64,000 nucleotides of DNA from assembly GCF_000744825.1 (NCBI RefSeq), contig NZ_JQMR01000001.1, positions 434,001-498,000 of the forward strand, in the 5' to 3' direction. This document shows positions 51,087-64,000 of this stretch, in pieces. Position 1 is the stretch's first letter, and the number at the start of each line of letters is the position of its first letter. This DNA comes from Carnobacterium mobile DSM 4848 (GTDB lineage: Bacteria; Bacillota; Bacilli; Lactobacillales; Carnobacteriaceae). The notes under the pieces are model-generated. The model ran no database searches. It was not told the DNA's origin and was given only the letters and a program-made list of their open reading frames with translations. Both the position numbers and the translations under genes were made by a program.

Positions 51087-51115
51087 TTGACTCTTATGAA
51101 AGCAACGAGTAAGAT
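51087..51115 (+). promoter_or_regulatory. promoter of the trpXYZ-like leader transcript
   Basis: TTGACT, 17 bases and TAAGAT precede the first leader ORF by about 40 bases. Confidence 0.7.
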
Positions 51116-51156
51116 AAATCTAATAAGTTTTTAATCAACCAAAAGGAGTGTTTGTC

Positions 51157-51219
51157 ATGAATCCATTTTTACCTATCGCTATGAATTTAAATAATCGTTG
51201 GCAAAGCCAAGATAGATAG
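51157..51219 (+). CDS. leader peptide 1 (20 residues, one Trp)
   Basis: A short ORF with a strong ribosome site (AAAGGAGTG, seven bases before ATG). It starts MNPFLPIAMNLNN and ends RWQSQDR, with a single Trp codon at 51199-51201 and TAG at 51217-51219. The first leader hairpin begins at the stop codon. Its size, position right after the promoter and the hairpins that follow are those of an attenuation leader peptide. Arg-Trp-Gln recurs in the second leader ORF. Confidence 0.7.
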   Translation: MNPFLPIAMNLNNRWQSQDR

Positions 51220-51400
51220 GTTGATTTATGAAGCTTCTTCATAGGTACAACCTTCAGGGAACACGCTGAACTTGTATCTATGTTGGTTTATTTGAACACA
51301 CGTGAAAACGACCTGCATAGAGTAAAACATTTATTCTATGTGGAGTCGTTTACTATAAACAGCTACCACAAGTACTTTTGTGGAGCTGTTTATTTTTTTA
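51218..51400 (+). promoter_or_regulatory. multi-hairpin attenuator ending in an intrinsic terminator
   Basis: Hairpins by eye. H1: AGGTTG..TATGAAG / CTTCATA..CAACCT (51218-51253). H2: GGTACAA..TTCAG / CTGAA..TTGTATC (51244-51278). H3: TATCTATGTTGGT / ACCTGCATAGAGTA (51275-51324). H4: AACGAC..CATAGA / TCTATG..GTCGTT (51307-51350). Terminator: AACAGCTACCACAA / TTGTGGAGCTGTT then TATTTTTTT (51358-51400). Each hairpin shares bases with the next. A possible antiterminator pairs TGTGG..TTTA (51339-51353) with TAAA..CCACA. Confidence 0.75.
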
Positions 51401-51442
51401 TCTTCAGTAGTCAAAATAATAGAGATAAAGGAGCAAAATAAG

Positions 51443-51496
51443 ATGTCTTTTCTTTTTATGAAACGATGGCAGTACTTGGAGAAAACAATTCAATAG
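51443..51496 (+). CDS. leader peptide 2 (17 residues, one Trp)
   Basis: A second short ORF, beyond the terminator and 41 bases before the transporter gene. AAAGGAG lies 8 bases before ATG 51443. The product is MSFLFMKRWQYLEKTIQ, with Trp at codon 9 in the same Arg-Trp-Gln context as leader peptide 1 but written with different codons (CGA TGG CAG against CGT TGG CAA). A small hairpin AACGAA/TTCGTT (51498-51512) sits between its stop and the ribosome site of the next gene. Confidence 0.6.
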   Translation: MSFLFMKRWQYLEKTIQ

Positions 51497-51537
51497 GAAC
51501 GAAAGATTCGTTAACTACTTACTTTGGAGGAAAAAAC

Positions 51538-52524
51538 ATGAAAAAAATGATTGGGTTTATCAGTGTATTAGCACTAATTTTAACATTTGCATTTTTTACC
51601 GAACAAACTAAAACAACCACTTCAACAAAAAAAGAGTTACCCATAGTAGGTGTCTTACAACTAACCAGCCATCCTGCTCTTGATAAGATTTATGAAGGTA
51701 TCATTGATGCTTTAAACGAAGAAGGATTCATCGATGGAAAAACCATGGTATTGGACTTTCAAAATGCTCAAGGCGATCAAAGCAATTTGAATTCTATGAG
51801 CGCTCGATTCGTAAGTCGGAATGCAGCAGTTATGGTGGGCATCGCCACTCCAGCTGCTCAAGCTCTAGCGAATAGTTCTCAAGAGATCCCGATTATTTTA
51901 GGAGCCGTTAGCAATCCCGAAGAAGCTGGGTTGGTTGCCAGCAATGAAAAACCTGGTGGGAATATCACCGGTGTCAGTGATCTGACTCCAATTAAAGAAC
52001 AGTTTGAATTGATCAAGGAACTTTTACCAGAAGCAAAAAAAATCGGTATTCTTTATTCATCGAGTGAAGACAATTCGCTTGTTCAAGCTGAACAAGCTGC
52101 TGAAATTGCTGCCGCTATGGGATATGAAACAACTACTTTAACTGTCTCTTCAACGAATGACGTTTCACAAGTTAGTTCTTCATTGGCTAGCCAAGTAGAT
52201 GCTATTTGGGTTCCAACAGATAATACCATAGCCAGTGCGATGAATACCGTGATTGCGGCCACTGACGCCAAACACATTCCGGTTTTTCCTGCTGTGGATA
52301 CAATGGTAGAAGAGGGCGGACTAGCAACGATCGGGTTAAACCAATACGAATTAGGAAAATTAACGGGTAAAATGACAGCAGCTGTTCTTAAAGGCGAAAG
52401 TGATCCGGCAACCACTCCGGTGCAATACCTTGAGCAAGGAGAAATAATACTCAATGAAGAAAAAGCAAAGGAATTAGGAATTTCTATTCCGCAAACCTTG
52501 TTAGACCAAATGGCAAATCACTAA
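51538..52524 (+). CDS. trpX: TrpX-type ABC transporter substrate-binding protein
   Basis: A 328-residue extracytoplasmic binding protein of the ABC_sub_bind family. Start ATG 51538 after TTTGGAGG. Residues 5-22 form an N-terminal hydrophobic anchor without a lipobox cysteine, as in streptococcal TrpX, so it is probably held by this helix. The body starts LPIVGVLQLTSHPALDKIYEGI, closely like streptococcal TrpX, with ILGAVSNPEEAGLV and GNITGVSDLTPIKEQ following. Tryptophan or a related amino acid is the likely ligand; this is inferred from the family and the Trp-containing leader. Confidence 0.85.
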   Translation: MKKMIGFISVLALILTFAFFTEQTKTTTSTKKELPIVGVLQLTSHPALDKIYEGIIDALNEEGFIDGKTMVLDFQNAQGDQSNLNSMSARFVSRNAAVMVGIATPAAQALANSSQEIPIILGAVSNPEEAGLVASNEKPGGNITGVSDLTPIKEQFELIKELLPEAKKIGILYSSSEDNSLVQAEQAAEIAAAMGYETTTLTVSSTNDVSQVSSSLASQVDAIWVPTDNTIASAMNTVIAATDAKHIPVFPAVDTMVEEGGLATIGLNQYELGKLTGKMTAAVLKGESDPATTPVQYLEQGEIILNEEKAKELGISIPQTLLDQMANH

Positions 52525-52556
52525 TTTAACTATATCTAAGAAAGAAGGTCATATCA

Positions 52557-53447
52557 ATGGATTTAATTGTAACCGCAACAGCACAAGGTTTGTTATGGGG
52601 CATAATGGCTTTAGGCATTTTTATTACTTATCGGATTCTAGATTTACCGGATATGACAGCTGAAGGCTCTTTTCCATTAGGAGCTGCTGTTTGTGCCCGT
52701 TTGATTCTTTCTGGCGTTCATCCGCTGTTGGCATCACTAACAGCCTTTGCTATCGGAGCTCTGGCAGGGCTTATCACCGGTTTTCTAATTACTAAAGCAA
52801 AAATACCAGGACTATTAGCGGGTATTTTGACTATGACGGGACTTTATTCTATCAATTTGCGTATTATGAACCGTGCAAATTTAAGCTTATTAGGCAAACA
52901 AAAAATAACGGACTCGCTAAGCCGATACAACTTGCCGCCTCAGTTTGATACTATTTTTATGGGGATCTTTCTAACGGTCTTAATTATCGCTGCGTTAGTT
53001 CTTTTCTTTAATACAGAATTAGGCCAAGCAGTGATTGCTACGGGAGATAATGAAAAAATGGCACGGTCATTAGGAATATCAACCAACCGAACAAAAATAC
53101 TGGGTTTGATGTTATCGAATGGCATTGTAGCTGCAGCAGGAGCCTTGATCGCGCAAGACAATGGTTATGCAGATATCAGTATGGGTATTGGTACCATCGT
53201 TATCGGATTAGCTTCCGTGATTATTGGAGAAGTTATTTTTGGTAATTTATCTTTTGCCAATCGATTGATTTGTGTAATCCTAGGAGCTATTATTTATCGC
53301 TTCATTATTATGTTTGTCTTGCTGGTAGGGCTTCAGCCAAATGATTTAAAATTGATCTCTGCCATTATTTTAGCTTTCTGTTTAGCTTTACCAAGTTTAA
53401 GAAATAAACTAAATTTAAACTTTTTTAATAAAAAGGAGGTTCTTTAA
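52557..53447 (+). CDS. trpY: TrpY-type ABC transporter permease
   Basis: A 296-residue membrane protein with about eight to nine helices, of the BPD_transp_2 permease family that partners ABC_sub_bind proteins. Conserved features are FITYRILDLPDMTAEGSFPLGAA near the N-terminus and NGIVAAAGALIAQDNGYADISMGIGTIV in the second half. Start ATG after AGAAAGAAGG. The ATPase gene starts immediately after its stop, so the two are tightly coupled. Confidence 0.88.
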   Translation: MDLIVTATAQGLLWGIMALGIFITYRILDLPDMTAEGSFPLGAAVCARLILSGVHPLLASLTAFAIGALAGLITGFLITKAKIPGLLAGILTMTGLYSINLRIMNRANLSLLGKQKITDSLSRYNLPPQFDTIFMGIFLTVLIIAALVLFFNTELGQAVIATGDNEKMARSLGISTNRTKILGLMLSNGIVAAAGALIAQDNGYADISMGIGTIVIGLASVIIGEVIFGNLSFANRLICVILGAIIYRFIIMFVLLVGLQPNDLKLISAIILAFCLALPSLRNKLNLNFFNKKEVL

Positions 53448-54257
53448 TTGACAACATCCTCAGTCTTATCGATTCAACATATTACTAAAACTTTTTATCC
53501 TGGAACAGCCAATCAAAATCAAGTATTAAAAGGCTTGAACCTAGAAGTCCGACAAGGTGATTTTATAACAATTATTGGGGGAAATGGTGCTGGGAAATCT
53601 ACGTTGTTGAACAGCATTTCAGGGAATTTTCTAATTGATCAAGGATCCATTAAAATCGAAGACAAAGAAATTACTAAATTAAAAGAAGAACAACGTGCAG
53701 GGATGATCGGACGGGTATTTCAAGACCCATTACTGGGGACTGCGCCGCGTATGACGGTCAGCGAAAACTTATCCATCGCTTATCGCCGCGGGAAGAGAAG
53801 AACGCTACGCAAAGGCAGTTCTCTAAAAGAAAGAGAATTCTTCAAAGAGATTTTAGCTAAATTGGGCTTGGGTCTGGAGAACCGCTTGGACAGCGAAATG
53901 GGTTTGTTGTCTGGCGGACAGCGACAAGCGATAGCCTTATTGATGGCTACTATGAAAAAGCCAAAATTACTGTTACTAGACGAGCATACTGCTGCACTTG
54001 ACCCTAAAACGGCCAAGATCGTCTTAGAATTGACAAATAAGCGAATTGCCGAAGAACAGTTAACTGCACTAATGATTACCCATAATATGCAAGATGCTTT
54101 AAATTACGGCAATCGTTTGATTATGTTGGACCAAGGAAAAGTAGTGGTGGATGTCAAAGGAGAAGAAAAAAGTAAGTTAACTGTAGCTGCTGTGTTAAAT
54201 TTATTCCAAGCTTCGACAGAAAAATCCGTCCTCTCAGATGAAATGCTTCTTGGATAA
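53448..54257 (+). CDS. trpZ: TrpZ-type ABC transporter ATPase
   Basis: A 269-residue ATP-binding subunit. Walker A GGNGAGKST (about 44-52), Q-loop RVFQDPLLG, signature LLSGGQRQAIAL, Walker B LLLLDEHTAALDPKT (His in place of the usual Pro or Ala) and H-loop MITHNMQDAL. It begins at TTG directly after the trpY stop, with AAAGGAGG upstream. With trpX and trpY it forms a complete importer. No amino acid synthesis gene is adjacent. Confidence 0.9.
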   Translation: MTTSSVLSIQHITKTFYPGTANQNQVLKGLNLEVRQGDFITIIGGNGAGKSTLLNSISGNFLIDQGSIKIEDKEITKLKEEQRAGMIGRVFQDPLLGTAPRMTVSENLSIAYRRGKRRTLRKGSSLKEREFFKEILAKLGLGLENRLDSEMGLLSGGQRQAIALLMATMKKPKLLLLDEHTAALDPKTAKIVLELTNKRIAEEQLTALMITHNMQDALNYGNRLIMLDQGKVVVDVKGEEKSKLTVAAVLNLFQASTEKSVLSDEMLLG

Positions 54258-54408: not shown

Positions 54409-54843
54409 ATGGATACCCTCATTTCTACTCATGAATTAATAAAGGAAATAGATAGTTTTCAAACTCGATATACTTCCATTGAACAATCGGTATTGAAAAA
54501 AAATCGACTTAATCGATCTGCTTTTTTTATTATGCGTCACCTTATTGAACAACCATTGACCTTAACCGAATTAACTTCTTCTTTCTCCTTAAATAAGTCT
54601 ACATTAAGTAGACAAGTAAATGACTTAGTAAAAAAAGGGTGGGTTATTAAAGATAGTGGAAAAGACAAGCGGTTCATGTACCTAGTGTTATCAAAAGAAG
54701 CTAAACAGCTTATTAATAGCGTACACTTCGAAATAGAACAACAAGTGACTCAGATTTTTAGCTCTTGGCCCAATGACGAAAAACAGTTATTCATTATTCT
54801 TCTGAGACGCATCAACCGAAGAATAGAATTAGCAACTGATTAA
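54409..54843 (+). CDS. MarR family transcriptional regulator
   Basis: A 144-residue winged-helix regulator. The DNA-binding core is LIEQPLTLTELTSSFSLNKSTLSRQVNDLVKKGWVIKDSGKDKRFMYLVL (about 45-95), with the Asp/Arg wing DKR. Flanking helices form the dimer interface. Start ATG after GGTGAAGGAG. The inverted repeat just upstream suggests autoregulation. A 104-residue protein and a DJ-1-like protein follow and may be regulated with it. Its ligand is unknown. Confidence 0.9.
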   Translation: MDTLISTHELIKEIDSFQTRYTSIEQSVLKKNRLNRSAFFIMRHLIEQPLTLTELTSSFSLNKSTLSRQVNDLVKKGWVIKDSGKDKRFMYLVLSKEAKQLINSVHFEIEQQVTQIFSSWPNDEKQLFIILLRRINRRIELATD

Positions 54844-58648: not shown

Positions 58649-58741
58649 AATTATATTTAAAAAAATAACTTAATGTGGTATGATTTAAATATAGAAATGT
58701 TTAAGGCGGTGGCTAACTCTCATTAAAAAGGGGTGATGCCT

Positions 58742-58783
58742 ATGTTTTTTTGTTTGGCTTTCCCCAGAAAGGAAAACCCATGA
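58742..58783 (+). CDS. 13-residue ORF overlapping the toxin start
   Basis: ATG 58742 follows AAGGGGTGATGCC. The product MFFCLAFPRKENP ends at TGA 58781-58783, sharing ATGA with the toxin start. This suggests coupled translation: ribosomes finishing the short ORF could restart on the toxin. Confidence 0.45.
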   Translation: MFFCLAFPRKENP

Positions 58784-58863
58784 GTATTTTCGAATCCTTA
58801 ATGTTTGCATTAGCTTTTGCAACGTTGGTTTTAAAAATCTCAACAAACAACAAAAAAAAGTAA
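58780..58863 (+). CDS. small hydrophobic peptide, TxpA/BsrG-like type I toxin candidate
   Basis: A 27-residue peptide, MSIFESLMFALAFATLVLK followed by ISTNN and three Lys. The start (Met, aromatic, Glu-Ser-Leu-Met) resembles TxpA and BsrG of Bacillus and the Hol_Tox group, and the single membrane helix with a Lys-rich end is typical. AAAGGAAAACCC precedes ATG. A hairpin with T tracts on both strands follows, as in loci with a convergent antisense RNA. Toxicity is inferred only. Confidence 0.6.
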   Translation: MSIFESLMFALAFATLVLKISTNNKKK

Positions 58864-58900
58864 CCGTCTGAACTTTAGCGAGTAGGACGATTACTTTTTG
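58855..58900. terminator. bidirectional terminator after the toxin ORF
   Basis: AAAAAGTAACCGTC pairs with GACGATTACTTTTT (one mismatch). It gives T runs on both strands, suiting a sense mRNA and a convergent antisense RNA. Segment TGGCTAAC (58710-58717) recurs as TGGCTACC (58912-58919), a possible pairing repeat. Confidence 0.7.
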
Positions 58901-58950
58901 TTTTCTCTTATTGGCTACCGTCTTTAACGGTTCTATAAAAGAGGGGAATG

Positions 58951-58980
58951 TTGACGCATTTCTCTCTTTTCTCTTATAGT
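58951..58980 (+). promoter_or_regulatory. candidate promoter of the YrrS-like gene
   Basis: TTGACG and TATAGT are separated by 18 bases, about 150 bases before the gene. Confidence 0.45.
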
Positions 58981-59129
58981 TTAACATGCGGTAACTGTTT
59001 TTTCAAATACATCTATTTTTCTTTGAAACAAGTTGTAATCATAGAGGTATAAAACTGTAATCTATTGCTAATATCCAACTGACCAATATATGCTATTATG
59101 ATATGGGAAACAGAAAGGACAGATACAAA

Positions 59130-63849: not shown

Positions 63850-64000
63850 TCAAAACGAGTAGGAGGAACCTTACGGTTCCGACCTCTCACACCACCGTAC
63901 GTACCGTTCGGTATACGGCGGTTCAATAACTTGAGTATCTTGTTTGGGCAGACGCATACAGTTGGGATAAATCTTTTAATCCCCACTTTATGAGTCTGTC
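63850..64000 (-). mobile_element. group II intron, 3' end (partial; class C features)
   Basis: On the minus strand the maturase end is followed by a domain V hairpin (63892-63921): CCGCCGTA pairs with TACGGTGG, with a two-base CG bulge and a TACC/GGTA upper stem. The catalytic triad reads CGC, as in group IIC introns. Domain VI (63857-63888) pairs GAG.AGG..GGAACC with GGTTCC..CCT.CTC and has a bulged A at 63860, the expected branch point. The 3' splice site should lie at about 63850-63856. The 5' part is beyond the window. Confidence 0.88.
63923..64000 (-). CDS. ltrA: group II intron reverse transcriptase/maturase, C-terminal end (partial)
   Basis: The last 25 codons before TGA (63923-63925) on the minus strand read DRLIKWGLKDLSQLYASA and end in TRYSSY. 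This matches the C-terminal end of bacterial class C intron-encoded proteins, where GLKSL is followed by a Tyr/Ser-rich end just ahead of domain V. The rest of the protein lies to the right of the window. Confidence 0.85.
   Translation of the reverse strand, partial: DRLIKWGLKDLSQLYASAQTRYSSY

Follow-up and report, generated by a model that had tools for sequence, protein, structure and literature searches.

We analysed a 64,000-nucleotide stretch of DNA from Carnobacterium mobile DSM 4848 (hereafter the window). Three adjacent genes in it, trpX, trpY and trpZ (51538-54257), are predicted from their protein matches to encode a tryptophan ABC importer as an operon. They are preceded by a leader in which ORF1 (51157-51219), a hairpin array (51219-51399), ORF2 (51443-51496) and trpX (51538) follow one another:

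51087..51115, + strand: putative sigma-70 promoter, TTGACT-17-TAAGAT, 9/12 matches
51143..51150, + strand: Shine-Dalgarno (SD) sequence of ORF1, AAGGAGTG
51157..51219, + strand: ORF1, 20-codon leader peptide MNPFLPIAMNLNNRWQSQDR followed by a stop, conserved as ..LN..WQS..
51199..51201, + strand: candidate UGG sensing codon of ORF1, at the aligned position of relatives' leaders
51427..51434, + strand: SD sequence of ORF2, AAAGGAGC
51443..51496, + strand: ORF2, MSFLFMKRWQYLEKTIQ followed by a stop, 56 non-redundant homologues
51464..51470, + strand: CGATGGC, invariant core of ORF2 (CGA in 56/56, C after UGG in 56/56)
51538..52524, + strand: trpX, tryptophan ABC transporter substrate-binding protein (NF041285 equivalog, 461.9 bits against a cut-off of 390)
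52557..53447, + strand: trpY, permease (PF02653)
53448..54257, + strand: trpZ, ATP-binding protein (PF00005)

A gene for a MarR-family regulator (54409-54843, + strand) lies immediately 3' of trpZ, and no trpA was detectable in a search of this genome. Further along, a match to the Listeria sRNA rli28 of Rfam (58669-58853, + strand) adjoins a match to the RatA antitoxin RNA on the opposite strand (58895-58982, - strand). Both are above cut-off, and together they possibly represent a type I toxin-antitoxin locus. A Group II intron domain match is found close to the window end (63854-63923, - strand).

A reading of this DNA from the sequence alone (the sequence-only reading) had reported both short ORFs, their SD sequences, one Trp codon in each and a hairpin and terminator array, all of which were confirmed at the coordinates above. 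It had also named a promoter; the hexamers are plausible, yet their number is not above that in shuffled sequences (2 found versus 2.4 expected), so that they stand at chance level. T-boxes and TRAP are textbook devices in Firmicutes. Neither had been seen in this leader, and this observation held: RF00230 has no match within the window even at E <= 10, and the mtrB/TRAP gene is absent from the genome (PF02081 profile), which argues against a TRAP-controlled leader. T-box, TRAP and other Rfam families were thus rejected as assignments for the leader.

ORF1 was searched for in 110 trpX loci from the order Lactobacillales and beyond as a short ORF in which W is followed by Q, W, N or H. The search matched 96 of the 110 loci, and 3 of these 96 were thrown out as unrelated. 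ORF1 is kept in about 90 of the 110; in Lactobacillales its Trp codons, one or two in number, hold a constant position. The search itself accounts for part of the conservation seen at the residue after W, and less for that of the SD sequence, frame and position. UGG occupies the aligned position in 59/59 non-redundant leaders, a set selected for UGG; Trp is doubled as WW in 10/59 and by a second W at +3 in another 10/59. Of 86 distinct leaders, 83 have a start codon behind an SD sequence from which the Trp frame runs uninterrupted to UGG and 1 has such a start in another frame, a contrast that is partly by construction because the leaders were chosen by ORF1 itself. Related genomes enter these leader counts as non-independent samples. 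Typical peptides are LNNRWQSQDR, LNNSWQNWRR, INRWQFQH and LNGWWRS, giving a W-Q-S consensus with a variable residue preceding W. As the consensus of ORF2 is K-R-W-R, the Arg-Trp-Gln motif shared by the two peptides here is a coincidence of this strain. Both short ORFs are nevertheless kept in relatives that retain the transporter, as a conservation check proposed with the sequence-only reading had called for.

Next, we examined the RNA downstream of the ORF1 sensing position. The leader folds far more stably than shuffled sequences, with z = -6.98 (51110-51540) and the hairpin region with z = -8.0 (51220-51410). In our model, eight RNA segments form mutually exclusive hairpins:

51203..51218, + strand: segment A, 3' end of ORF1, pairs with D (pairing tests)
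51219..51233, + strand: segment B, pairs with C (pairing tests, folds, covariation)
51237..51252, + strand: segment C, left arm of hairpin P1 (with D) or 3' arm of B:C
51271..51289, + strand: segment D, right arm of P1 and antiterminator strand
51306..51326, + strand: segment E, antiterminator partner of D or 5' arm of terminator T1
51330..51351, + strand: segment F, 3' arm of T1 or anti-T2 strand
51357..51374, + strand: segment G, 5' arm of terminator T2 or partner of F
51375..51399, + strand: segment H and U-run, 3' arm of intrinsic terminator T2
51238..51357, + strand: sub-threshold match to RF04312 (trpB motif), 33.9 bits against a cut-off of 59, E = 0.0045

Predicted pairing energies were compared between cognate segments and segments swapped between species. 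Cognate pairs were the more stable for A:D (-15.3 versus -11.2 kcal/mol), B:C (-14.4 versus -9.9 kcal/mol), C:D (-17.5 versus -13.2 kcal/mol), D:E (-16.9 versus -14.2 kcal/mol, a gain of 2.7) and F:G (-12.8 versus -10.2 kcal/mol), the last being a helix that links both terminators in Carnobacteriaceae. The corresponding difference was below 1 kcal/mol for control pairs outside the model, indicating from sequence comparison that the segment pairs co-adapt across families. In a 15-sequence family alignment, paired cells and covariation exceeded those of 500/500 shuffles both for an off structure (C:D, E:F, G:H) and for an on structure (B:C, D:E, F:G). No A:D covariation was found in this alignment because the helix is nearly invariant there. 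In Liquorilactobacillus and relatives (L151, L059, L063), the loop of P1 contains repeats of CTGGCAAACAG, similar to the TGGCAA of ORF1.

The A:D helix bears on what is conserved in ORF1. Gln at codon +1 is CAA in 46/46 cases and Ser at codon +2 is AGC in 31/32, against 15% AGC among the Ser codons of trpX, and the best partner of the 21 nucleotides after UGG is mostly segment D (median shuffle p 0.03). The synonymous sites of ORF1 are thus frozen mainly because its 3' end pairs with D, and the conserved WQS would be largely a pairing strand, not an arrest peptide. Selection on the peptide, which the sequence-only reading had suspected in both ORFs, was rejected for WQS on these grounds, and in ORF2 the codon at -1 is likewise frozen (CGA in 56/56).

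We conclude, with a probability of about 0.88, that ORF1 and the RNA 3' of it constitute a ribosome-mediated transcription attenuator responsive to Trp-tRNA supply; this rests on sequence comparison and folding. ORF1, which had been placed beside an attenuator, would accordingly be part of it through its Trp codons. ORF1 can be translated and carries codons for the amino acid under regulation, and by sequence and folding the antiterminator and terminators are exclusive, with ribosome position deciding between them. With no ribosome on the leader, A:D may enclose B:C, which would make D unavailable and let the E:F and G:H terminators form (off). With ample Trp, a ribosome at the ORF1 stop codon would cover A and B, so that C:D and then both terminators form (off). 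With little Trp, a ribosome stalled at UGG would cover only A; B:C would form, D would be free, and D:E together with F:G would block both terminators so that trpXYZ is transcribed (on). We infer that tRNA-Trp charging is the signal and that stalling and termination truly take place. The same design with other sensing codons would serve Tyr/Phe and His genes elsewhere. The arrangement resembles the E. coli trpL attenuator in its Trp-codon leader peptide, competing RNA helices and readthrough upon stalling. It differs in having more segments (A to H), two terminators joined by F:G (Carnobacteriaceae), an ORF-internal segment (A) as a partner of the antiterminator strand and mostly one Trp codon, and in that a transporter is regulated, in Firmicutes.

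Folds in which a ribosome masked part of the leader were consistent with this scheme. For the window leader and relatives from several families, a stall at UGG gave B:C and D:E and a ribosome at the stop codon gave C:D; leader L073 showed no switch. These are equilibrium folds with an assumed ribosome footprint in place of kinetics, and they therefore support the logic of the switch while its kinetics remain unproven. D:E gained more than 2 pairs at UGG relative to the stop in 48 of 68 distinct leaders and the change was reversed in 6; the switch was lacking in about 20 of the 68, some of them through wrong automatic segment assignment. When the A site was scanned over all codons, the Trp codon fell within the region of high D:E (antitermination) in the commonest class (34 leaders), as did the aromatic codons of Tyr/Phe-type leaders, and other Trp leader classes were less clear. 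Without a ribosome, A:D encloses B:C in the leaders of several relatives (L010, L021, L143). The ribosome-free minimum-energy fold of the window leader is the on state, and the untranslated off state would therefore be weak in this strain. With its full 5' context the window's own leader is almost without a switch (D:E 2.1 versus 1.4); folds with automatic segments and long 5' context are noisy, and the ribosome-masked folds were preferred.

A different explanation, already proposed for the trpB motif and gbs1262, is that the leader works as a riboswitch and itself binds tryptophan or a related compound. RF04312 was put forward as a strong riboswitch candidate of over 900 members (PMC11109978), and the gbs1262 element of Streptococcus agalactiae, found upstream of a tryptophan synthase gene in Fusobacterium, as a putative riboswitch (PMC4448216). 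According to the latter paper, gbs1262 and the paralogous gbs2033 of S. agalactiae are aromatic amino acid riboswitches, with premature termination seen by RNA-seq. From position and gene context, gbs1262 would correspond to RF04312 and gbs2033 probably to RF02863. The names 'trpB motif', 'gbs1262' and 'gbs2033' occur in no other paper of the searched literature, outside of which subscription journals lie. The leader studied here shares the RNA plan of RF04312, namely a P1 hairpin, an antiterminator in its right shoulder and a terminator; its match to this family, the sole relevant one in Rfam, reaches 33.9 bits and falls below the curated cut-off of 59, which is passed by relatives belonging to other families (L111 at 68.7 and L143 at 73.9 bits). 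Strong hairpins and an antiterminator are thus present, as a riboswitch would have them. What speaks against direct ligand binding is, in part, that mutual pairing largely accounts for the conserved sequence and that the sensing codons lie in the ribosome-stall region in the commonest Trp class and in Tyr/Phe leaders. The 2024 authors themselves kept a classic attenuator open, and neither the uORF nor codon swaps are mentioned in the available part of their description (PMC11109978).

The codon swaps provide the further argument. This genome's two paralogous transporters have leaders ending LNNYFFSYFRNCL and LNNYYFSYLRCCL, and across the order such paralogues carry LNN.YFSYFR followed by a stop, with the sense-codon spacing of WQNWRR followed by a stop. 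The Tyr/Phe paralogue leaders match RF02863 ('Enterococcus sRNA 2410', 'sRNA_2410'), which is present in 158 of 295 Lactobacillales genomes and, in the loci examined, precedes a transporter or an aroE-like gene. RF02863 is similar to the leader described here, with Y/F codons and paralogous transporter or aroE-like genes behind it, but it is filed as an sRNA, whereas we read it as a 5' attenuator. At L308, L309, L310 and L313-L316, RF02863 leaders with YFSYFR uORFs are followed by shikimate dehydrogenase-like genes, some of these loci being near trpX on the same contig. In Clostridia, where no RF04312 match reaches the curated cut-off, the uORFs of the matches contain HHH to HHHHH if a hisZ-like gene follows, FFFSFFR, FFNNHFR or YYCNYYR if the gene is for a sodium symporter, and YYYYYSHYF ahead of an ABC permease. 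The weak-score RF04312 loci L113, L114, L277, L284 and L285 were set aside as they look like plain terminators or unrelated sequence. Leader peptides with a run of sensing codons are known in Firmicutes from the His leaders of hisZ/hisS in bacilli (PMC2965389). In A-site scans of the codon-swapped leaders, the sensing codons lay in the antitermination region in about half, and in others the automatic segments were wrong. The repeated uORF codons of RF04312 (W, Y, F, H) match the downstream gene, which argues against a ligand-binding RNA, as such an RNA would have no need of the match. A sensing codon that follows the downstream gene fits a codon-swappable attenuator and does not fit a riboswitch, and we regard direct ligand binding as very improbable.

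Still slightly less credible is that ORF1 is an arrest peptide sensing free tryptophan in the manner of TnaC (PMC8429421), a parallel drawn in the sequence-only reading that did not survive comparison. TnaC is itself a precedent, with a short ORF and a basic residue before Trp, and W-Q-S is conserved across families; but TnaC senses free Trp via its nascent chain with Trp about 12 residues before the end and conserved flanks, whereas the ORF1 W lies only 4-10 codons before the stop, ORF1 N-termini are not conserved, the frozen synonymous positions are explained by A:D pairing, Y/F/H runs replace W in related leaders, and ORF2 can be as short as MFKRWRP followed by a stop.

In addition to the attenuator, ORF2 appears from its conservation to be a second, separate and real element. 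We searched near trpX for any SD-preceded short ORF with K, R or Q, then R or K, then W, with no condition on codons, which yielded 56 cases after removal of redundancy, from Carnobacteriaceae, Atopococcus and Streptococcus. Every one of them has CGA immediately ahead of UGG, compared with 12% of trpX Arg codons (a small sample, n = 82), and every one has C as the next base after UGG. At AARCGATGG sites, an SD sequence and start lie in the K-R-W frame in 64 of 67, against 6 and 4 in the other frames. Other genes behind a KRW mini-ORF were dismissed upon inspection, the extra matches being N-termini of long proteins or out of frame. The ATG inside CGATGG was also rejected as an alternative trpX start, its frames relative to trpX being 20/21/18. 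In Streptococcus, whose loci do match RF00230, ORF2 stands behind a T-box, which has been shown by experiment for S. suis trpX (PMC9382623). There, Trp-tRNA charging controls trpXYZ and ORF2 follows, but the sensor is a tRNA-binding RNA with no leader ORF upstream of the terminator. As the upstream device is a T-box in streptococci, ORF2 is independent of the type of sensor ahead of it.

We asked what ORF2 might do. Slow reading of CGA has been described for the his leader of Salmonella (PMC4046918), and a programmed pause is therefore our leading guess: ORF2 would be a second stage in which a slow CGA-UGG pair tunes trpX translation or mRNA stability by Trp supply. This is held tentatively, at somewhat less than even odds. 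The conserved SD sequence, start codon and frame, the invariant CGA and its retention behind two unrelated sensors, leader peptide and T-box, are all in its favor. On the other hand, no sequence pairing in cis with the core was found on either side of it (median shuffle p 0.40 upstream and 0.58 downstream), and the invariant C after UGG is unexplained by a codon-only model. Nor does any hairpin alter access to the trpX SD sequence, predicted by folding at 0.57, 0.55 and 0.58 for different ribosome positions; an ORF2-dependent structure sequestering it was rejected on this account. A less likely reading, which we consider doubtful, takes CGATGGC as an RNA element, a site for a protein or another RNA, with translation incidental. 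Seven invariant nucleotides, synonymous sites included, would suit such an element, yet one frame is kept with its SD sequence and start, and the distance to the start varies by whole codons.

The sequence-only reading had envisaged two-stage control, by transcription and then translation. Such a succession is plausible, given that every terminator lies 5' of ORF2 and that ORF2 is kept where the sensor is a T-box, as in Streptococcus; a hairpin implementing the translational stage was not found. It is conceivable, with the odds leaning against it, that two Trp-codon sensors act independently and one after the other on trpXYZ, first a leader-peptide attenuator (T-box in streptococci) at transcription and then ORF2, post-transcriptionally. 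In that arrangement ORF2 would act through its invariant CGA-UGG-C core without a sequestering hairpin.

Cumulatively, the attenuator reading of ORF1 would imply the following: 1) attenuators of the trp type, with interchangeable sensing codons for Trp, Tyr, Phe or His, are common in Firmicutes; 2) a riboswitch-candidate class of >900 members (PMC11109978) and an Rfam sRNA that more than half of the sampled Lactobacillales genomes contain would both be given a mechanism; and 3) leader codons would predict the substrates of transporters of unknown specificity.
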